Of a stretch of DNA of 64,000 bases, positions 2,967-57,837 are shown one piece after another. The DNA is taken from the NCBI GenBank assembly GCA_017645275.1, contig JAGCPH010000047.1, forward strand, positions 55,983 through 119,982. The letters run 5' to 3'. A program made the position numbers and the translations under genes. The stretch is from Bacteroidales bacterium (GTDB lineage: Bacteria > Bacteroidota > Bacteroidia > Bacteroidales > F082). Numbering within the stretch: the first letter of the stretch is position 1; each line of letters opens with the position of its first letter. The notes under the pieces were generated by a model. The model was not told the DNA's origin. It was given only the letters and a program-made list of their open reading frames with translations, and ran no database searches.

Positions 2967-3617
2967 ATGCTATCAGTTAGGACATTCATATTCAATCCGA
3001 TACAGGTTAACACCTACGTCGTCTACAATGAAAACAAGGAGTGTGTCATCATCGACGCAGGTAATTTGGAGCCTTACGAAGACCAGCAGATTCTTGATTA
3101 TATTGATAAAAATGGCCTGAAGCCTTTGATGTTGCTCAACACCCACTCGCATATCGACCACGTGATGGGTAACAAGGTTCTTGCTGAAAAATATCACGTC
3201 GAGCTGGCTGCAAGTCCGGTGGAGAAGCCTTATTACGACAAAGTATGGGCTTATGCTGCGGCTTTCGGCATCAATTTTACGCAAGAACGCTGCCTCATGC
3301 CTACCAAAGACCTCAACGACGGCGATATTATCAATATAGGCGACGACAAGCTGAAGGTGCTTTTCACCCCAGGTCACGCTCCAGGTCATGTATGTTTCTA
3401 TGACGAGAACGATGGCATCATCTTCACTGGCGACACCTTGTTTTACCGTGGAATCGGCCGCTGCGACCTTATCGGTGGCGACTATAACGCAATAGAAAAA
3501 AGCCTTCGTGAGGTGCTTTACAAGCTCCCTGACGACACAATAGCCTACTGTGGTCACGGCCCACAGACAAGAATAGGGGACGAGAAACGTAACAATCCGA
3601 TGGTTTCTAGTCTTTAG
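2967..3617 (+). CDS. MBL-fold metallo-hydrolase (glyoxalase II-like)
   Basis: A 216-aa metallo-beta-lactamase fold enzyme. Zn-binding residues are visible in order: THSHIDH (HxHxDH) near residue 60, GHAPGH near 136, GDTLF near 152 and GHGP near 195. The IGRCDL motif after GDTLF is typical of the YcbL/glyoxalase-II-like group, which hydrolyses thioesters; the real substrate is unknown. It starts 2 bases after the glycosyltransferase stop, so translation is probably coupled. The last codons and the TAG stop are supplied by the heptamer repeat array that begins here, so the original C-terminus may have been altered. Confidence 0.85.
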   Translation: MLSVRTFIFNPIQVNTYVVYNENKECVIIDAGNLEPYEDQQILDYIDKNGLKPLMLLNTHSHIDHVMGNKVLAEKYHVELAASPVEKPYYDKVWAYAAAFGINFTQERCLMPTKDLNDGDIINIGDDKLKVLFTPGHAPGHVCFYDENDGIIFTGDTLFYRGIGRCDLIGGDYNAIEKSLREVLYKLPDDTIAYCGHGPQTRIGDEKRNNPMVSSL

Positions 3618-3700
3618 TCTTTAGTTCTTAGTCTTTAGTCCTTAATCTTTAGGAATCACTATTATAACTAAAGACTAACGACTAAAGACTAGCGACTAAA
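3605..3700. repeat. Inverted heptamer repeat array, left
   Basis: Tandem 7-base units of the type TTAGTCT/TTAGTCC run from about 3607 to 3651. After a 15-base spacer the complementary units (AAAGACT, AACGACT, AGCGACT) run from 3667 to 3700. The two arms can pair imperfectly. The MBL-hydrolase stop codon lies in the first unit. A matching array is at 3861-3946. Confidence 0.85.
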
Positions 3701-3728
3701 AAAGCACCGAAATTTTCGGTGCTTTTTT
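3698..3728. terminator. Bidirectional intrinsic terminator
   Basis: A perfect palindrome with AAAAAAGCACCGAAA pairing to its complement and ending in a T-run on either strand. It can end transcription of the MBL-hydrolase operon on the plus strand and of tRNA-Glu on the minus strand. It directly abuts both the heptamer array and the tRNA 3' end. Confidence 0.85.
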
Positions 3729-3729
3729 G

Positions 3730-3801
3730 TATCGGGTAAGGGAATCGAACCCTTATTTCGACAGTGAGAGTGTCGTTACCTAACCGTTAGTAGAACCCGA
3801 C
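3730..3801 (-). tRNA. tRNA-Glu (anticodon CTC)
   Basis: A 72-base cloverleaf can be folded on the minus strand. The acceptor stem is GTCGGGT/ACCCGAT with one G-T pair and discriminator A. The D-arm is TACT/GGTA with an AACGGTTA loop. The anticodon stem is CGACA/TGTCG with loop CTCTCAC, giving anticodon CTC (codon GAG, Glu). The T-arm is AAGGG/CCCTT with loop TTCGATT. CCA is not encoded. It lies between two inverted heptamer arrays and has its own promoter. Confidence 0.93.
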
Positions 3802-3814
3802 CTCAATTGCGCTG

Positions 3815-3848
3815 CAAAAATACAACATTTTTTTATACGTCCAACAAA
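3815..3848 (-). promoter_or_regulatory. Promoter of tRNA-Glu
   Basis: On the minus strand a TATTTTTG box (3815-3822) matches the Bacteroidota -7 consensus TAnnTTTG. A TTTG (3845-3848) 22 bases upstream matches the -33 element. The tRNA 5' end is 14 bases downstream of the -7 box. Confidence 0.7.
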
Positions 3849-3860
3849 TATTTTAAAAAA

Positions 3861-3946
3861 TATTTAGTCGTTAGTCGCTAGTCGCTAGTCTTTAGTATTG
3901 ATATAATTACTAACGACTAGCGACTAAAGACTAAAGACTAACGACT
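3861..3946. repeat. Inverted heptamer repeat array, right
   Basis: Units TTAGTCG, TTAGTCG, CTAGTCG, CTAGTCT run to about 3897. A short spacer follows, and then the complementary units ACTAACG, ACTAGCG, ACTAAAG run to 3944. The final codons (Ser-Arg-stop) of the deiminase gene, read on the minus strand, lie inside the right arm. Together with the array at 3605-3700 it brackets tRNA-Glu. Confidence 0.85.
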
Positions 3947-5905
3947 TTTCACAATCTTCTTCACCACGCTGTTTCCATTCTTGTCGCTGACTCTCACGAA
4001 GTACACGCCTTCATTCAAATCCGTGACGTTGATCTCGTTAGCGTTATCGACCGACATCACCTGCTGGCCTATAGCGTTGAAAATAGTCACATTCTGAACG
4101 TCGCCATTAATATATAAGGTGCTGTTCATCGGGTTAGGATAAACCTCGAAGCTTGCAGCCTCATTCTCAGCGACGCCGTCAAAGATAGTTTCGTTGATTT
4201 CAACTGTGATTGTCTGAATACCAAGGCTTGAGATAATCTCAATAGTTGTGTTTACATAACCTTTAGTATAAATGGCAATATAAACTGTCACATCCAAGCT
4301 CTCACCTGGCTGAAGTGTTGTAGGAAGTGGCTCGCTTGTCTCAAAATCAAGATAATGATACTCAATCTCACTGATGCTGTTGACATCAAATGGGCTTGCA
4401 GTGTTGTTGGTGATAGTGAATGTAGCAGGCTCATCTTCCTCAAAAGTGATGTCATTCACGCTGATTGTAGGCTCTGCCGGAACGTGTGTCTCCATCTGGA
4501 AATGATGTGGGTCGAGCTCGGCAAACACCGGCTGTGTGTAACGGCGACCTGACTCGTCAGCACCGAAAACGTAATAATCGATACTCGATTCGCTCTGATA
4601 ACCTTTGATATAGCCGACATACTCATCAGGCTCGCCAGTAGCTGTCATATGTGCTACTTGGTATTCACCGCCATCAATTCTATAATAAACAAGGAGTGAA
4701 TCCTGTTTCAGATCAGCACCGCTGTAAGCGATGAATTTGCTTGTGACTGCTATTGAATCCTGCCATTCCTGCTCACCGAAGATGACGTTTCTGTGGTCGA
4801 CGAAAAGCATGCCGAAGTCCATCACACCACGGGTTCTGCAGTGCAAAGCGTCGGTATTCTCCCAGCTGATACCTGATCCGTTGTTCACAACGCCAACGAC
4901 CTCATATCCTGGCATGGCGTCGCGGTAAACCTGCAAAGCCTGCTCGTTATATGTGCTGTTTGTTCCAAGCGGCACATACACTGTCTTGTTTAGAATCAAG
5001 CTGTTGGTGTAAGGAGCAAGGGTGTTGCCACCTGGTTCCTGCACGCGGTAAACGTGGTAAGGATAGCCCCAGCAGCAATTTGTTGTCTCGAAATACTCAG
5101 CAACCTGCTCGTAATACTGGTAACGTGGGTTGCTTTGCGGCAGCTGTGCAATCAAAATCTTGTCAGGTGCGAGGTATTTGCCCCAGCAGTCGACGTGCGC
5201 GATGTAGTCGCCCTGTGGGTCGATGGTGACATGATATGGGTCAATGCCGAGATAGTCACGCATCTTGTTACGCACGTTGGTCTCGTTGTTGCCGTTCTCC
5301 TGGAAAACAAGATCATCGCTAACACCATGGCCGCGGCCGTCTTCCATCATGTTGCCGCCTGTGTGCTGGAGGTTCATGCCATACATCGGGATGTTCCAGA
5401 AGTTGGCAAACACGCCCGACATGTTGTCGTCGTTAGGACGTGGACGGTTGTAGATGTTGTCAACGATAGCAGGATGAGTGTCCTCGAAGATGTACCACGG
5501 ACCGTAATCACGTACCCAATATGAGTCGGACTGGGCATTCACAAAGGTCACATTGTCCATGTTCACACCTGCGCTCTGGAATGAGCCCTGTGCACTGTTC
5601 TGATACGACGACGATACAATGCAATACACATGGCAGTTATTAGCCAGCTGCACCACCAAACTTGTTGGGATTCCAAGAGGGTAACGGATCATAACACCCT
5701 GCATGGGCTCAAACTCGGCCACGAAACGTGGTGTGCCTGTAGGAGGGTCTGTCTCAACAAAATTTTCGTTTCTCACTGGCGTATGCATCTCTTCCTCAGA
5801 GAGATAATGCCATCTTTTCCAATCTGGAGTCTTCTGCTCCTGTGCGTTAACTTTGATGCTGAAAATCAAAGCAATAACAGCAAAACTGAGTAATATTTTC
5901 TTCAT
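3938..5905 (-). CDS. Secreted peptidylarginine deiminase (PPAD-like) with T9SS sorting domain
   Basis: A 655-aa exported enzyme of the guanidino-modifying superfamily. All key residues known from Porphyromonas gingivalis PPAD (D130, R152, R154, H236, D238, N297, C351) have counterparts in order and at nearly the same positions: D133 (WVRDYGPW), R154 and R156 (YNRPRPNDD), H237 and D239 (AHVDCWGK), N301 (PYTNSL), C356 (DALHCRTRG). The two Arg in YNRPR correspond to those that bind the C-terminal carboxylate of substrate in PPAD, which argues for a peptidylarginine rather than an agmatine substrate. A signal peptide (to about residue 21) starts the protein. Beta-rich Ig-like segments follow the catalytic domain, and a type A sorting domain (VYPNPMNST to the end) closes it. 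By family it converts C-terminal Arg of proteins to citrulline outside the cell. It is about 100 residues longer than PPAD. Confidence 0.88.
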   Translation of the reverse strand: MKKILLSFAVIALIFSIKVNAQEQKTPDWKRWHYLSEEEMHTPVRNENFVETDPPTGTPRFVAEFEPMQGVMIRYPLGIPTSLVVQLANNCHVYCIVSSSYQNSAQGSFQSAGVNMDNVTFVNAQSDSYWVRDYGPWYIFEDTHPAIVDNIYNRPRPNDDNMSGVFANFWNIPMYGMNLQHTGGNMMEDGRGHGVSDDLVFQENGNNETNVRNKMRDYLGIDPYHVTIDPQGDYIAHVDCWGKYLAPDKILIAQLPQSNPRYQYYEQVAEYFETTNCCWGYPYHVYRVQEPGGNTLAPYTNSLILNKTVYVPLGTNSTYNEQALQVYRDAMPGYEVVGVVNNGSGISWENTDALHCRTRGVMDFGMLFVDHRNVIFGEQEWQDSIAVTSKFIAYSGADLKQDSLLVYYRIDGGEYQVAHMTATGEPDEYVGYIKGYQSESSIDYYVFGADESGRRYTQPVFAELDPHHFQMETHVPAEPTISVNDITFEEDEPATFTITNNTASPFDVNSISEIEYHYLDFETSEPLPTTLQPGESLDVTVYIAIYTKGYVNTTIEIISSLGIQTITVEINETIFDGVAENEAASFEVYPNPMNSTLYINGDVQNVTIFNAIGQQVMSVDNANEINVTDLNEGVYFVRVSDKNGNSVVKKIVKSR

Positions 5906-15476: not shown

Positions 15477-15581
15477 ATTACTTAAAATTTTGTTTACACA
15501 ATATTAATAACTCGCAAAGTTAAGAAATATTTTGATATTGTGTACGATAATTCAAGATTTTTTAGCAATTTTGATGTCGAA

Positions 15582-17276
15582 ATGAAATATTACAACATCC
15601 CGATATTTTTGCCCGAACTGGCGTGTCCTTTCCGATGCGTCTATTGCAACCAATTTAGCATTACTGGAAAGCAGCAAATACCTGATATTCAATATGTTAA
15701 AAATACAATAGACCAATATTTATCTTCTTTTACGGAAAATGACAGGTTCGTCGAGGTGGCGTTTTTCGGCGGAAATTTCACAGGTTTGCCCGAAAAAATG
15801 CAGGACGATTTTCTGAAAATTGTGCAGCCTTACCTCGAAAAAGGCGTAATTCAGGGCATACGATGCAGCACCCGACCAGATTATATCGACGAAAAAAGGA
15901 TGAAAGCATTGAAAAACTTCGGGGTGCGCAACATTGAACTCGGTGCGCAGACCACCAACGACGAGATCTTGCGTAGATGCGGCCGCGGACACACTTTTAG
16001 AGATATCGAAAATGCATCGCAAATCATTGTGGGTGAGGGTATTACACTCGGCTTGCAGATGATGCTCGGACTGCCGTTCGACACATTCGAGAACGATATG
16101 CAAACTGCCCACGATATCGTCAGACTTGGCGCAAAAGAGACACGCATCTATCCGTGTATAGTGGTGAAAGACACTGAGTTAGAGCGACTTTACCATGCTG
16201 GTGAATATAAACCTCTGACACTGGATGAGGCTGTGGAACAGTCGGCGACGTTGTATGAATATTTCACCGAAAACGACGTTAAAGTCCTCCGAATAGGCCT
16301 TCACACCTCCGACGACCTGAATGGTGCAGCTTATGTTGCCGGTCCTTACCATAAAAACTTCGCCGAGATGGTCTTCAGTCGCTTATGGGGCCGCAAATTC
16401 GACAAAATTGACGAGAAATCGGATAGCGTCACCATTGAAGTCCCTGAAAATCAATTGAATCACGCAATAGGGTATAAGGGGGAGAACAAGAAAAAACTGT
16501 TAGAACGATATAAAAAGGTCGTCATTACCTGTAGAGACGCACGGCCGTGCGTCTCTACAGGTAACATCCAAACCATCATCGCCAGTGCCACAATGCCAGC
16601 CGAAGCTCGTGAGAATCTCTCAAAACACGGCAACGTTTGTTGGCTCGAGCCCTCCAATGCCGCCTATCCATCAATTTCGTCACACCCCGACATTTTCTGT
16701 TTTTGCCATAACGAAAGACATTGTGACACAATAATTTGCGCGAAAAATGTCCACATTAATTTGCCCGAAAACATCAAGGTGGAAAAGGGTGGGAAATCTG
16801 TCGGAAACAAGTATCCGGAGACCTGCCATTTTAACGCTGTTGGTGTTGGTAATATATTGATACATAATTTGTTATATACTGACTCGGCCATTTGCAACCT
16901 GTATGGACAAATGTGGAAGAAATCCGTGCAACTCAATGTAAATCAAGGATATACGCGATGCAATTTGTTGGCGCTGGATGAACATAACTATATCACCTCC
17001 GATTTCGGCATAAAACGAGTCTTGGAAGAGAACAATTTCAATGTCTTTTATGTTGATCCGCATCAAATCACGTTACCTGGTCAGAAATATGGATTTTTCC
17101 CAGGCTGCTGCGGCATGTTTGGCGATAATCTTGTGGTGTGCGGCTCACTGAAACATCTCAAGGAATGTAAGGAACTGCGGAAGTTTGTTCGTCGCAACGG
17201 TATGAAAATCATCGAGTTGTACGACGGCGAGCTTGTGGACGTGGGAAGCATTTTCTTTGTGAATCCAAAAGAATAA
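15582..17276 (+). CDS. Radical SAM protein (Elp3/YhcC-like) fused to DUF6873 (GME-fold) domain
   Basis: A 564-aa two-domain protein. The N-terminal domain (about 1-310) is a radical SAM enzyme: ACPFRCVYCNQ carries the CxxxCxxC [4Fe-4S] cluster motif, and FFGGNFTG, STRPDYI and IELGAQTT follow as in Elp3/YhcC-like proteins. The C-terminal domain (about 345-562) shows SSHPDIFCF, YPETCHFNAV, NQGYTRCN, SDFGI, FFPGCCGMFGDN and DVGSIFF, which I match from memory to DUF6873, a predicted guanidino-enzyme fold. The join (residues 315-328) is encoded by a perfect 40-bp palindrome. A GTG frame opens at 15540, but the ATG at 15582 gives the usual MKYYNIPIFLPE start. The substrate is unknown. Confidence 0.8.
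   Translation: MKYYNIPIFLPELACPFRCVYCNQFSITGKQQIPDIQYVKNTIDQYLSSFTENDRFVEVAFFGGNFTGLPEKMQDDFLKIVQPYLEKGVIQGIRCSTRPDYIDEKRMKALKNFGVRNIELGAQTTNDEILRRCGRGHTFRDIENASQIIVGEGITLGLQMMLGLPFDTFENDMQTAHDIVRLGAKETRIYPCIVVKDTELERLYHAGEYKPLTLDEAVEQSATLYEYFTENDVKVLRIGLHTSDDLNGAAYVAGPYHKNFAEMVFSRLWGRKFDKIDEKSDSVTIEVPENQLNHAIGYKGENKKKLLERYKKVVITCRDARPCVSTGNIQTIIASATMPAEARENLSKHGNVCWLEPSNAAYPSISSHPDIFCFCHNERHCDTIICAKNVHINLPENIKVEKGGKSVGNKYPETCHFNAVGVGNILIHNLLYTDSAICNLYGQMWKKSVQLNVNQGYTRCNLLALDEHNYITSDFGIKRVLEENNFNVFYVDPHQITLPGQKYGFFPGCCGMFGDNLVVCGSLKHLKECKELRKFVRRNGMKIIELYDGELVDVGSIFFVNPKE
16525..16564. repeat. Perfect 40-bp palindrome inside a coding region
   Basis: Each 20-base arm (TTACCTGTAGAGACGCACGG and its reverse complement) matches without a mismatch and without a loop. 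It is read in frame as part of the radical SAM/DUF6873 protein (Ile-Thr-Cys-Arg-Asp-Ala-Arg-Pro-Cys-Val-Ser-Thr-Gly-Asn), at the seam between the domains. It shares the GTAGAGACG arm with the elements at 18810 and 57787. Confidence 0.95.
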
Positions 17277-17303: not shown

Positions 17304-19136
17304 GTGAAAAAGATAGAGCTACTTTCTCCAGCGAAAAACCTCGAAGTGGGTGTTGCCGCCATCAACCATGGCGCTGATGCGGTGTATATCGGCGGTCCTG
17401 GCTTCGGTGCACGCGAGAAAGTGAGCAATAGCATCGACGACATCGAGAAACTTTGCCGTCATGCCGCCATTTACGACGCAAAGGTTTACGTCACACTCAA
17501 TACCTTGTTGTTTGACAACGAGTTAGATCAGGCTCGCAAGATCGCCTGGGACTGCTACAACGCCGGAGTCGACGCACTCATAGTGCAGGATATGGCTCTC
17601 CTGATGATGGATTTGCCTCCGATTGCACTACATGCCTCTACACAATGCAACAACACAACCGCCGAAAAGGTCAAGTTCCTTGAAGATGTGGGTTTCAAAC
17701 AGGTTGTGCTTGCTAGGGAATTGAGTATCAACGAGATAAAAGAGATACGCTCCAAAACCACCGTGCCTCTCGAGTTTTTCGTGCACGGCGCTTTGTGCGT
17801 GAGCTATAGCGGTCAGTGCTATCTGAGCCACGTCATCGGCCATCGTTCGGCAAACCGTGGGGCGTGCGCCCAACCTTGCCGACTGAAATGGGACCTCGAA
17901 GATGAGAATGGTAACACTTTGATAGCCAACCGACATCTGCTGTCGTTGCGCGACATGAACAACTCGAAAAACCTTGAGGAACTCATTGACGCAGGCATCA
18001 CCTCGTTTAAAATCGAGGGCCGACTGAAAGACGCTGATTATGTGAAGAATACTACGGCATATTACCGTCAGGCGTTGGATAAAATCATCGAAAAACGTGA
18101 CGATTTGGAGCGTGCTTCCCGAGGTGTCTCGACACCTTCGTTTGTTCCGAACCTCGAAAAGTCGTTCTCGCGTGGTTTCACTGACTATTTCGCGCATGGC
18201 CGACAAAAAATCGACTCGCCATTCACCCCGAAATCGATGGGAGAACATATCGGCACAATCCAGAAAATAGATGGCAAACGATTGAATGTCAATCTGTTAA
18301 AAGGCATAGAACTCCACAATGGCGACGGCCTCTGTTTCTTGGATGAAAACAACGAGCTGCAAGGCTTCAATGTCAATGGGGTTGATGGTAGTACAATCCT
18401 AAGTTCAGCACCACTGTCATTCCGAGTGCGGCGAGGAATCTCATTGTTCCGCAACTACGACATAGTATGGCAGAAATCCGTCGAAACCTCCGACGGCAAC
18501 CGTAAAATCGCAATCAGATTAAAATTGTCAGATACCGCTGAGGGTTTGAAACTATCAGCATTTGTTGATGATACCGTAAGTGCTGATGTTGAGATACATT
18601 GCCCAAAAGACATAGCGAAAAACCCTGAAAAGTCACTCGAAAATATCCGCACGAAACTGTCGCAATGGGGTGACACTAAATTCACCATAGAATCTGTCGA
18701 TATCGATTTCAAAGAGGTTTATTTCATCCCGAATTCGGTTTTAGGAGAATTGAAACGGCAATTGGTGGTGAAATTGGAGGAGACGTTGATGGAAAACCAT
18801 CGGTGTCCCATTGTAGAGACGTACGGCCGTACGTCTTTACAATCGGATTATCCCGATACAACGTTATCGTTTTCCGCCAATGTCACCAATTCATTATCCC
18901 GTCAATTCTATGAAAATCACGGCGTTACGCATATCGACGACGGTCTGGAGAAATCGATGCCGGAAGGCGAGATAGTGGTGATGACGACAAAACATTGCAT
19001 CCGTTACGCCAACGGGATGTGCGCCAAAGAGACAGGAAAACCTGCCACACCTTTATTTATTAGCAATGATTGTGGTCGTTTCCGCCTCGATTTCGACTGC
19101 AAAAATTGCCTTATGAAGGTGATTTATAAAAATTAA
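17304..19136 (+). CDS. U32 family peptidase / tRNA hydroxylation-type protein
   Basis: A 610-aa member of the U32 'collagenase-like' family. Evidence is the N-terminus ELLSPAKNLEVGVAAINHGADAVYIGG, the signature EFFVHGALCVSYSGQC YLS near residue 155-173, and GACAQPCRLKW, which holds the conserved Cys. The C-terminal DUF3656-like region ends in a Cys-containing CKNCLMKV. E. coli relatives (TrhP/YegQ) are needed for 5-hydroxyuridine in tRNA, and peptidase activity is doubtful for many members. The start is GTG. Two foreign-looking repeat pieces are read in frame: a half element (about residues 371-379, SFRVRRGIS) and a GTAGAGACG palindrome (about 503-513). Both lie in the variable C-terminal half, so the enzyme may still work. 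Confidence 0.85.
   Translation: MKKIELLSPAKNLEVGVAAINHGADAVYIGGPGFGAREKVSNSIDDIEKLCRHAAIYDAKVYVTLNTLLFDNELDQARKIAWDCYNAGVDALIVQDMALLMMDLPPIALHASTQCNNTTAEKVKFLEDVGFKQVVLARELSINEIKEIRSKTTVPLEFFVHGALCVSYSGQCYLSHVIGHRSANRGACAQPCRLKWDLEDENGNTLIANRHLLSLRDMNNSKNLEELIDAGITSFKIEGRLKDADYVKNTTAYYRQALDKIIEKRDDLERASRGVSTPSFVPNLEKSFSRGFTDYFAHGRQKIDSPFTPKSMGEHIGTIQKIDGKRLNVNLLKGIELHNGDGLCFLDENNELQGFNVNGVDGSTILSSAPLSFRVRRGISLFRNYDIVWQKSVETSDGNRKIAIRLKLSDTAEGLKLSAFVDDTVSADVEIHCPKDIAKNPEKSLENIRTKLSQWGDTKFTIESVDIDFKEVYFIPNSVLGELKRQLVVKLEETLMENHRCPIVETYGRTSLQSDYPDTTLSFSANVTNSLSRQFYENHGVTHIDDGLEKSMPEGEIVVMTTKHCIRYANGMCAKETGKPATPLFISNDCGRFRLDFDCKNCLMKVIYKN
18415..18441. repeat. Half copy of the GTCATTYCGAGTG repeat inside the U32 gene
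   Basis: The bases GTCATTCCGAGTGCGGCGAG, followed by GAATCTC, closely resemble one end of the about 100-bp elements at 20966 and 53925. Here they are read in frame as Ser-Phe-Arg-Val-Arg-Arg-Gly-Ile-Ser. No second arm is seen. Confidence 0.6.
18810..18843. repeat. 34-bp palindrome inside the U32 gene
   Basis: Arms ATTGTAGAGACGTACGG and the reverse complement pair, with a single G/T mismatch (18816 against 18837). It is in frame, encoding Ile-Val-Glu-Thr-Tyr-Gly-Arg-Thr-Ser-Leu-Gln. It has the same core (GTAGAGACG...CGGCCG) as the palindrome at 16525. Confidence 0.9.
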
Positions 19137-20965: not shown

Positions 20966-21075
20966 CGTCATTTCGAGTGAAGCGTAGCGGAATCGAGAAA
21001 TCTCCGGCATTTGAATGCCACTGAACAATTGATTGGCGGAGATTTCTCCACTCCCTACGGTCGGTCGAAATGACG
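20966..21075. repeat. Nested palindromic repeat (GTCATTTCGA family), copy 1
   Basis: The outer arms CGTCATTTCGA (20966-20976) and TCGAAATGACG (21065-21075) enclose inner arms GAGAAATCTCCG (20995-21006) and CGGAGATTTCTC (21038-21049). A small GGCATT/AATGCC hairpin sits inside. The element ends directly before the ribosome binding site of phosphofructokinase. Copy 2 is at 53925-54022. Confidence 0.9.
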
Positions 21076-21089
21076 GGAAGGAGAATATC

Positions 21090-53924: not shown

Positions 53925-54022
53925 GTCATTTCGACCGACCAGAGGGAGTGGAGAAATCACCGGCATCCAATTGATTCTGAAATATTCAACGGCGGTGATT
54001 TCTCGACTTCGCTCGAAATGAC
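53925..54022. repeat. Nested palindromic repeat (GTCATTTCGA family), copy 2
   Basis: Outer arms GTCATTTCGA (53925-53934) and TCGAAATGAC (54013-54022) enclose inner arms GAGAAATCACCG (53951-53962) and CGGTGATTTCTC (53993-54004). It fills the gap between HMG-CoA reductase and the GYDIA kinase. The same end (GTCGGTCGAAATGAC on the coding strand) faces the downstream start codon as in copy 1. Confidence 0.9.
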
Positions 54023-54026
54023 GGCC

Positions 54027-56537: not shown

Positions 56538-57782
56538 ATGAAAGTTTTAGTCCTTCGTTCTTTGTTTCAGAGCGACGATTTTGTGAAAACAGAATACGCC
56601 GACCTAATTTCACGCCTTGAAAAAGAATGCGGTGCCGAAATCACCGTTATTTCTGAGTCAACTGATTGGAAGTCAATGTGTTTTAAACCTGATTATTTGA
56701 TGATTGCCACAGGCGGCGTGGAGAATTTGTTTAAAAATATTTTTGTTGGCACTTGGTGCGCTGCGTCGAAACATACCATTTCGATTATAGCCGACGGTCG
56801 CAACAACTCTCTGGCGGCGGCGCTCGAAATCCTCACTTATCTTGAAGAACAAGGCGATGAAGGTGCTATAATCCACGGCACCAACGACGAGATTATCACC
56901 GCAATCCATGCTAATGAAAATCATGATGTACCTACCATATCGAGCAAGTTGCGTGGCACTCGCATAGGATTGTTCGGCTATCCTTCCGACTGGCTTATAG
57001 CTTCGGGTGTCGACTACGATTATCTCAGAGAGTTTTATGGTGTTGAATCTGTTTACATTGATTTACAACGACTTATAGACGGAATACACAATGTTCCTAC
57101 GGCTGAAGCCGAAAAAGTTGCAGATGACATCAAAAAACGGGCCAAGTCTGTCAAGGAGCCGAATGAGGCTGACATGATTGAGGCTGCCAAGACGTATCTT
57201 GTCATAAAGGAAATCTGTCAGGAAGAACGCCTGAATGCTATGACAATACGTTGTTTTGACATTGTAAAGGTCTGTAACACAACGAGTTGCTTGGCGTTGG
57301 CATTGCTTAACGACGAAGGCATTGTGGCTGGATGTGAGGGCGACATGCAGACGCTTCTCACCATGATTTTGGCTAAACGCTTATGTGGTGAGGAGGCTTT
57401 CATGGCCAATCCGTCGCAGCTCACCAACCACACCACGCTGTTTGCGCATTGCACCATACCGTTGGCTATGTGCGACGAGACCATCATACGCTCGCATTTC
57501 GAGTCGGGACTGGGCGTCGCCATACAGGGAGCCATGCCGTTGACCGACTACACCATCTTCAAATGGGGCGGTCAACGTCTCGACAAATTCATCGCTTTGG
57601 AGGCTAAAGCTGTTGAAAACCAATACAGTGATCATTTCTGTCGCACGCAGATAATGCTTGATGTAAACCTGAAACCGTATCTTTTGTACCGCACCATCGG
57701 AAACCATCACGTTATCATCCGAGGACGGCATGCTGCGGAGATACGATGTTTCATGAAAGAAAATGGAATTTCATCGATATAA
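56538..57782 (+). CDS. L-fucose/arabinose isomerase-like protein
   Basis: A 414-aa protein that resembles the FucI/AraI superfamily. CEGDMQTLLTMILAKRLCG and AHCTIPLAMCDETII in the C-terminal half match conserved segments of fucose-isomerase-like proteins, and the end LLYRTIGNHHVIIRGRH fits the C-terminal beta-barrel domain. It is shorter than FucI (about 590 aa), and the N-terminal domain is reduced. Sugar isomerase activity is not certain. It starts 10 bases after the thioredoxin-like gene, so the two may be co-transcribed. A GTAGAGACG hairpin after the stop probably ends transcription. Confidence 0.65.
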   Translation: MKVLVLRSLFQSDDFVKTEYADLISRLEKECGAEITVISESTDWKSMCFKPDYLMIATGGVENLFKNIFVGTWCAASKHTISIIADGRNNSLAAALEILTYLEEQGDEGAIIHGTNDEIITAIHANENHDVPTISSKLRGTRIGLFGYPSDWLIASGVDYDYLREFYGVESVYIDLQRLIDGIHNVPTAEAEKVADDIKKRAKSVKEPNEADMIEAAKTYLVIKEICQEERLNAMTIRCFDIVKVCNTTSCLALALLNDEGIVAGCEGDMQTLLTMILAKRLCGEEAFMANPSQLTNHTTLFAHCTIPLAMCDETIIRSHFESGLGVAIQGAMPLTDYTIFKWGGQRLDKFIALEAKAVENQYSDHFCRTQIMLDVNLKPYLLYRTIGNHHVIIRGRHAAEIRCFMKENGISSI

Positions 57783-57822
57783 AAAAGTAGAGACGCGCCA
57801 TGGCACGTCTCTACAATTTTTT
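57781..57822. terminator. GTAGAGACG palindrome acting as bidirectional terminator
   Basis: The stem GTAGAGACGCGCCA and its complement (57787-57814) has one mismatched pair. It is flanked by an A-run and a T-run, so it can end transcription from both sides: the isomerase-like gene on the plus strand and groEL on the minus strand. It belongs to the same sequence family as the intragenic palindromes at 16525 and 18810. Confidence 0.8.
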
Positions 57823-57837
57823 AATCGATGAAATTTA

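Follow-up and report, generated by a model that had tools for sequence, protein, structure and literature searches.

A palindrome within the linker of a radical SAM-DUF6873 fusion gene of a Bacteroidales bacterium, best identified as a double-foot REP element

A perfect 40-bp palindrome, located at positions 16525-16564 of the window (the whole 64,000-nt stretch of Bacteroidales DNA analysed), is best identified as a REP element of the double-foot kind. It is very probable that this element was placed by a RAYT/TnpA_REP transposase in the linker of an existing radical SAM-DUF6873 fusion, where it was kept as an open-framed sequence at a flexible site, with the reading frame under selection. 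This explanation draws on observations concerning the repeat family, its copy number, its frame, the sites shared in relatives, the purifying selection acting on both halves of the host gene, and the core-matched palindromes present within and around RAYT genes. The single-strand transposase probably copied or moved the REP into the linker of a protein that would already have been fused, and which would tolerate the repeat without benefit. The survival of the element may be ascribed to (i) its reading frames, two of which are stop-free on either strand (VETHGRASL or CRDARPCVST; the third contains a TAG), (ii) the flexible nature of the linker, and (iii) selection that kept the frame, so that the DUF6873 part stays translated.

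The palindrome and its host gene

The features of the window discussed in this study are as follows (a strand is given where one was assigned):
15540..17276, strand +: radical SAM / Radical_SAM_C / DUF6873 fusion gene, 578 aa, GTG start (ORF and Pfam)
16525..16564: perfect 40-bp palindrome encoding ITCRDARPCVSTGN, codons 329-342 of the fusion ORF
16531..16558: 28-bp element, best identified as a double-foot REP (GTAG...CTAC), with a ACGGCCGT core (repeat-family comparison)
16584..17255, strand +: DUF6873 domain encoded downstream of the palindrome, residues 349-572, E 1.8e-56
17304..19136, strand +: U32 peptidase gene, one loop of which contains REPs or an unrelated repeat in relatives (Pfam and loop comparison)
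18806..18847: a second REP, in frame and close in core to the first (28-mer at 18813-18840), from approximately residue 504 of the U32 peptidase (sequence match)
20966..21076: repeat of ~110 bp (CATTTCGA), unrelated to the REP and carried at the seam by other species (matches to the linkers of L019, L020, L026 and L044)
53925..54024: further CATTTCGA-type repeat (sequence match)
57787..57814: intergenic copy with a GCCATGGC core, terminator-like on the minus strand (28-mer match)

The palindrome is composed of two 20-nt arms (TTACCTGTAGAGACGCACGG and CCGTGCGTCTCTACAGGTAA), which are 100% complementary and lack a loop, as a reading made from the sequence alone had stated; by simple arithmetic (64000 x 4^-20), approximately 6e-8 such structures are expected in a random window of this length. 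That reading had also placed the palindrome in frame and at the seam between two domains. Both points were confirmed: it lies inside the ORF 15540-17276, between the Radical_SAM_C (residues 201-282) and DUF6873 (residues 349-572) domains recognised by Pfam, which are preceded by a Radical_SAM domain (residues 28-189). The residue numbers given earlier (315-328) are correct if counted from the ATG at 15582, and correspond to codons 329-342 counted from the GTG at 15540.

The inner 28 bp of the palindrome (GTAGAGACGCACGGCCGTGCGTCTCTAC) constitute a member of a dispersed repeat family. Their layout, GTAGAGACG-CACGGCCGTG-CGTCTCTAC, fits the pattern GTAGAGACG-n-CGTCTCTAC, and the characteristic ends, GT[AG]G (5′) and C[TC]AC (3′), are both present on one long hairpin in the seam copy. 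An extension of the palindrome by at least 6 bp per side is found in 3 of the 83 copies located in the genome. The left flank of the seam copy (ACCT) is common to L024 and the right flank differs, which suggests that the right flank was altered later to match the left; a palindrome-templated change could have generated the additional 6 bp on each side.

The same reading had pointed to a related sequence acting as an intergenic terminator at 57.8 kb. Such a copy is indeed present, between two genes read from the sequence as convergent, and the idea of a terminator fits it, since one terminator-like match was detected on the minus strand (the mean for shuffled sequences was 0.3); its predicted RNA fold takes in flanking sequence, with energies of -35.5 kcal/mol on one strand and -37.3 kcal/mol on the other. 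The idea does not extend to the seam copy, because its hairpin is not followed by a T run. No terminator-like sites were found at 16300-16800, and an intrinsic terminator at the seam was rejected as a candidate. Separately, the flanks of the intergenic REP (57766-57836) form an inverted repeat of their own (ATTTCATCGAT / ATCGATGAAAT), an arrangement that resembles an extension of the palindrome. A cluster of short ACTAAAGACTAACGACTAAAG-type repeats, making several inverted repeats, was observed at 3604-3958.

Comparison of the fusion gene with that of its nearest relative yielded dN/dS values of 0.074 for the radical SAM part and 0.126 for the DUF6873 part. The purifying selection evident in both halves suggests that translation continues past the palindrome and that the downstream-encoded part is in use. 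In the AlphaFold model of the protein (mean pLDDT 78.6, pTM 0.53, 23 sequences), which is usable for the linker point only, a predicted strand (residues 326-330) is followed by residues with pLDDT values below 50 (333-342) and by a second strand (345-349); the N-terminal 46 residues also have low values. Most of the repeat-encoded residues (329-342) are therefore modelled as a low-confidence linker.

The seam in fused and separate genes

A fusion-type match (E < 1e-100) was found in 41 of 99 genomes of the genus by count; the named records in which the fusion occurs belong to uncultured Bacteroidales, most of which come from the guts of ruminants and horses, and include Candidatus Limimorpha caballi. 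The seam states of 42 distinct fusion loci, grouped by hand, are (i) the repeat described here in five (L016, L017, L024, L025 and L030, the last shortened), (ii) variant repeats in four (L018, L027, L028 and L051), (iii) the complete or partial ~110-bp CATTTCGA repeat in ten, (iv) a CTGAGCCTGTCGAAG-type repeat in two and (v) no recognised repeat in 21. The basal fusions have plain linkers of this last kind. The seam measures 51-150 nt between the same two residues.

Frameshift or assembly error at the seam had been named in advance as a finding that would overturn the sequence-only reading. The genome is a draft (54 contigs, 82% complete), which leaves some room for an assembly artefact, or for a palindrome arisen by chance. 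Both are unlikely, because this seam carries the exact 28-mer in three further genomes and a truncated version in one more; dozens of copies of the repeat exist, and the ORF is intact, with dN/dS close to 0.1 on either side of the palindrome. We consider the probability of such an artefact practically negligible.

In a tree constructed without the linker columns, the seam states require at least 12 changes (49 rows); the tree is the product of a quick search without bootstrap, and these changes do not separate gain from loss. The window protein is sister to that of genome G110 (SH-aLRT 99), the seam of which carries the CATTTCGA repeat instead, and three further well-supported groups mix seam states likewise. 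As judged from these comparisons, different repeats have been acquired, lost or swapped at this seam among related species. Neither a clean empty site nor a target duplication can be defined at the seam, since a repeat of another kind is present in the nearest relative.

The CATTTCGA repeat is present more than once in the genome that carries the window. We also observed that this second family (CATTTCGA...GAAATCTCC, ~110 bp) enters reading frames in relatives; no transposase was associated with it in this analysis.

The variability of the seam bears on another explanation, namely functional retention of the hairpin, which might slow translation from one domain to the next, take part in RNA processing or provide a useful peptide linker. 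The strong predicted RNA fold of the palindrome (-35.8 kcal/mol, z -8.0) and the repeated occupation of the same seam, and of the same loop in the adjacent U32 peptidase gene, are consistent with such a role. However, the sequence, the length and the repeat family vary between close relatives, no repeat is recognised in half of the fusion loci, and the absence of a T run argues against a terminator; we therefore regard a retained function as improbable.

Loci with separate genes bear on whether the repeat was present before the two genes became joined. Such loci exist in other genera of the family, and 26 of them were inspected, each in a different genome, out of 74 other-genus genomes. This set consists of 21 close gene pairs and five wider ones (the first seven loci were chosen as gene neighbours, and 14 more close pairs and the five wider loci were then added). 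No GTAGAGACG-type palindrome was found at the gene junction in any of the 26 loci; the best match disagrees at 6 of 18 arm positions. As measured by script, the start of the DUF6873 gene falls within the interval from 49 nt upstream to 1 nt downstream of the radical SAM stop codon in 19 of the 21 close pairs. L064, in which the script met an early stop, was recognised by eye as the 20th abutting or overlapping pair (20 of 21 in total); the junction of L309 was left out of this count, since an early stop was met there as well. A distance of 0.8-3 kb separates the genes in the five wider loci; the figure for L314 is approximate, since an early stop was met and the scanned stretch takes in coding sequence.

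The sequence-only reading had offered two possibilities, the first of which was that two adjacent genes fused and the intergenic repeat, or terminator, between them became the linker. The position of the repeat exactly at the seam, the related intergenic copy at 57.8 kb and the side-by-side arrangement of the two genes in other genera speak for this proposal. It is nevertheless not supported, and we consider it highly improbable: the other-genus junctions lack such a palindrome, nearly all of the close pairs abut or overlap, the fusion loci without a recognised repeat include the basal ones, and the same seam hosts repeats from unrelated families. The fusion of radical SAM and DUF6873 probably predates the repeat, an order that we infer from these sequence comparisons. 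The second possibility, a repeat inserted at a tolerant site, is supported by three observations: the family is distributed genome-wide, other species have repeats of different families at this seam, and the linker is modelled with low confidence. It had further been proposed that close relatives with the same fusion, no palindrome in the linker and no separate-gene state would speak against the reading as a whole. The first part of this description agrees with the plain linkers of 21 of the 42 fusion loci, but separate genes do exist in other genera.

Repeat copies in other genes and the RAYT transposases

The genome carrying the window (2.0 Mb) contains 25 exact arm-paired copies of the repeat (0 matches for a reversed control) and 84 matches with no more than 3 mismatches (2 for the control). 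At least 83 copies were located in the stretches scanned, and more are present in the genome. The repeat, with no more than 2 mismatches, is present in all 99 genomes of the genus (1-122 copies each, controls 0-1), and GAGACGCACGGCCGTGCGTC, the body of the seam copy, occurs in exact form in 46 of them.

Of the 83 located copies, 33 are in frame in ORFs of at least 120 codons (28 according to another codon-usage test), although one of these in-gene copies (C25:4210) looks like a chance match. Among the hosts are EPSP synthase, a UvrD-type helicase, NqrA, GH97, T9SS sorting tails and a CobW-type protein, the two domains of which are separated by the in-frame REP. In three of the T9SS tails (C12:16178 in L085, C29:12732 in L110 and C52:59550 in L119) the REP begins 10-12 residues into the domain. 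Copies with a GGCC core are found in genes in 17 of 34 cases, those with a CCATGG core in 7 of 21, and the others in 9 of 28; these counts show no clear difference. A genome-wide preference for inter-domain linkers was considered and not adopted, since the depletion of REPs from Pfam matches is not significant (12 of 27 copies inside, 15.1 expected, P 0.12). In that test the domain intervals were hand-entered, some being below Pfam's cut-off, and 6 of the 33 in-gene copies were excluded, i.e. C25:4210, three in ORFs without Pfam matches, C12:19244 (RAYT) and C36:3156 (Asp-Al_Ex permease).

The loop of the U32 peptidase was readable in 24 relatives (of 36 loci): REPs were found in 8, CATTTCGA-type repeats in 9 and, by the cut-offs applied, neither in 7, although a variant and a decayed palindrome can be suspected in two of the last group (L139 and L145). 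One of the REPs belongs to the distant lineage L152, and a relative of the latter, L156, lacks it. The in-frame copy within the U32 peptidase gene of the window (18806-18847) had been absent from the earlier reading. An EPSP synthase gene (L096:1863-3092) with two in-frame REPs was observed, and among 19 aligned relatives both sites are REP-encoded or plain in some. As compared at the sequence level, loops of the U32 peptidase and EPSP synthase appear to show the same colonisation as the seam.

Three RAYT-like genes, two of which contain a palindrome, were identified in the genome carrying the window. The first of these, an ORF of contig C12 (L085:4010-4561), matches NF047646 REP_Tyr_transpos (NCBIfam REP-associated tyrosine transposase) with an E value of 1.5e-16 and a score of 60.6 bits, which is below the 80-bit cut-off; palindromes with the GCCATGGC core lie on either side of it, and another is in frame within it. 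The second, on C35 (L194), has ATGTGCACAT-core copies upstream and inside. The third RAYT-like gene (L195, C31:16055-16546) is flanked by different palindromes, e.g. AAGGCATGCCTT.

We compared 50 RAYT-like loci (49 distinct, L183 and L197 being one locus). An inner palindrome is present in 33, a flanking one in 37 and both in 30; 20 of the loci were picked mostly for matches split near residue 95-108, which enriches inner palindromes, the inner palindrome of L172 lies past an in-frame stop, and a few are weak, with up to 5 arm mismatches. In the 30 loci with both, the cores of the inner and flanking palindromes match at 0.964, compared with 0.404 after shuffling (0 of 2000 shuffles were as high), in a procedure that treats the loci as unrelated, with kinship uncorrected. 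Palindrome cores differ between RAYT lineages. Inverted REP dimers were also seen near RAYT genes, and dimeric copies show one-sided tags. Nearly all of the 50 loci encode the motifs N or D followed by H[IVL]H, and WQ; YIENNV is the commonest form of the tyrosine motif, and the HuH-Y distance, where the pattern could be fitted, is mostly 82-127.

The seam 28-mer corresponds to one RAYT lineage, in which it is located inside the gene in 7 of 8 loci (L270-L276, in genomes G085, G094, G098, G113, G120, G121 and G130); L277 (G077) lacks it. These eight loci are those of the best eight genomes of a protein search; G085, G094 and G098 had been picked for listed palindromes near RAYT matches, and G120 and G130 by protein similarity alone. 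The inner copy of L276 has 2 mismatches, and the G120 gene (L273/L268) has a frame shift after the repeat. G121 contains the most exact copies of the ACGGCCGT core, with exact copies also on both sides of the RAYT gene. The motifs of this lineage are DHLH or NHLH and, in 3 of 6, YIVRNP, separated by 122-136. In L271 (G098:C66) several RAYT copies or pieces occur in a row, with three ACGGCCGT-core palindromes in and around them.

The 82%-complete assembly carrying the window yielded no RAYT gene from the ACGGCCGT-core lineage; its best match (E 8.9e-14) is a different RAYT. Among ten RAYT loci retrieved by a PF01797 search (L066-L075), an exact GTAGAGACG palindrome is located near L066, and one weak match was noted. 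Copy number and the number of Y1_Tnp matches are weakly correlated (Spearman 0.34, p 0.02, n = 46), and 16 of the 46 genomes have no Y1_Tnp match yet contain up to 78 copies; these counts are unreliable lower bounds, as the same HMM search missed the RAYT genes of the window's own genome.

A more far-reaching reading, which we consider rather doubtful, is that certain linkers and loops in this genus are standing docking sites, at which in-frame exchange takes place between RAYT-linked REPs and the unrelated repeat. The repeat would then be pre-selected as translatable, because many RAYT genes keep a core-matched copy in their own reading frame, and the RAYT gene would act as a proving ground for a coding-compatible mobile linker. 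The placement of a REP in the linker of an existing fusion remains the preferred explanation.

Significance and comparison with known systems

The fusion linker (42 loci) and the neighbouring loop (24 relatives) provide a dense comparative series, in which the sites hold differing mobile repeats and a transposase lineage can be named as the candidate cognate. They indicate that mobile repeats can supply protein linkers, and constitute a natural experiment on how insertions stay translatable and on the pace of their turnover. They also call for caution, since how a fusion arose cannot be deduced from a repeat lying at the domain seam.

REPINs, reportedly described by Bertels and Rainey in 2011, are said to be inverted pairs of REPs associated with a RAYT. 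The elements described here are likewise RAYT-linked REPs, but the seam copy is a single stem bearing both tags, and not an inverted pair.

The closest counterparts are the double-foot REPs that accompany subclass 2.4 TnpA_REP proteins in Cyanobacteria and Bacteroidetes (Quentin et al. 2018, PMC6006769). According to that paper, these REPs are inserted in frame within tnpA_REP, generally between HuH and Y, a double-foot REP could derive from an inverted REP dimer, and the subclass is characterised by the motifs NH[IFV]H, WQ and YIxNNP, with a median HuH-Y distance of 88. The present elements share with them the GTAG...CTAC hairpin, the occurrence in Bacteroidetes and the spread of copies through the genome; inverted dimers were seen here, and cognate REPs both flank the RAYT genes and sit in frame inside them. 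The RAYTs differ in carrying mostly YIENNV, or YIVRNP in the ACGGCCGT lineage, instead of YIxNNP.

GTAG-tagged REPs with a high copy number, an association with RAYTs and in-frame copies in protein genes have also been described by Di Nocera et al. (2013, PMC3733652). In that study, the recB genes of two Xanthomonas contain REPs at about the same site, and REP ends can supply TAG stop codons. The GTAG tag, the many copies, the RAYT link and the in-frame genic copies are common to both systems; the tag of those REPs is unpaired at one end, whereas the GTAG described here pairs with CTAC. Cutting of GTAG-tagged hairpins by RAYT has been shown for other REPs, as stated in PMC8266576.

Rickettsia palindromic elements (RPE) are, as given in PMC10969869, palindromic sequences of ~150 bp found in frame in many unrelated genes. 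The present repeats resemble them in the latter respect, but are 28-40 bp long and have a RAYT partner, a distinction drawn from descriptions and not from sequences.

The element thus belongs to a known kind; earlier work has documented in-frame REPs as well as REPs located within RAYT genes. Among the literature matches listed, no paper deals with in-frame REPs in this genus or with this seam, and the titles listed in a search with the arm sequence look unrelated. In comparison with PMC6006769, the element was traced here further, into ordinary host genes and, across the genus, into one linker. What appears to be new is (i) the serial occupation of one fusion linker and of a neighbouring loop by different repeat families across the genus, and (ii) the match of the seam 28-mer to one RAYT lineage.
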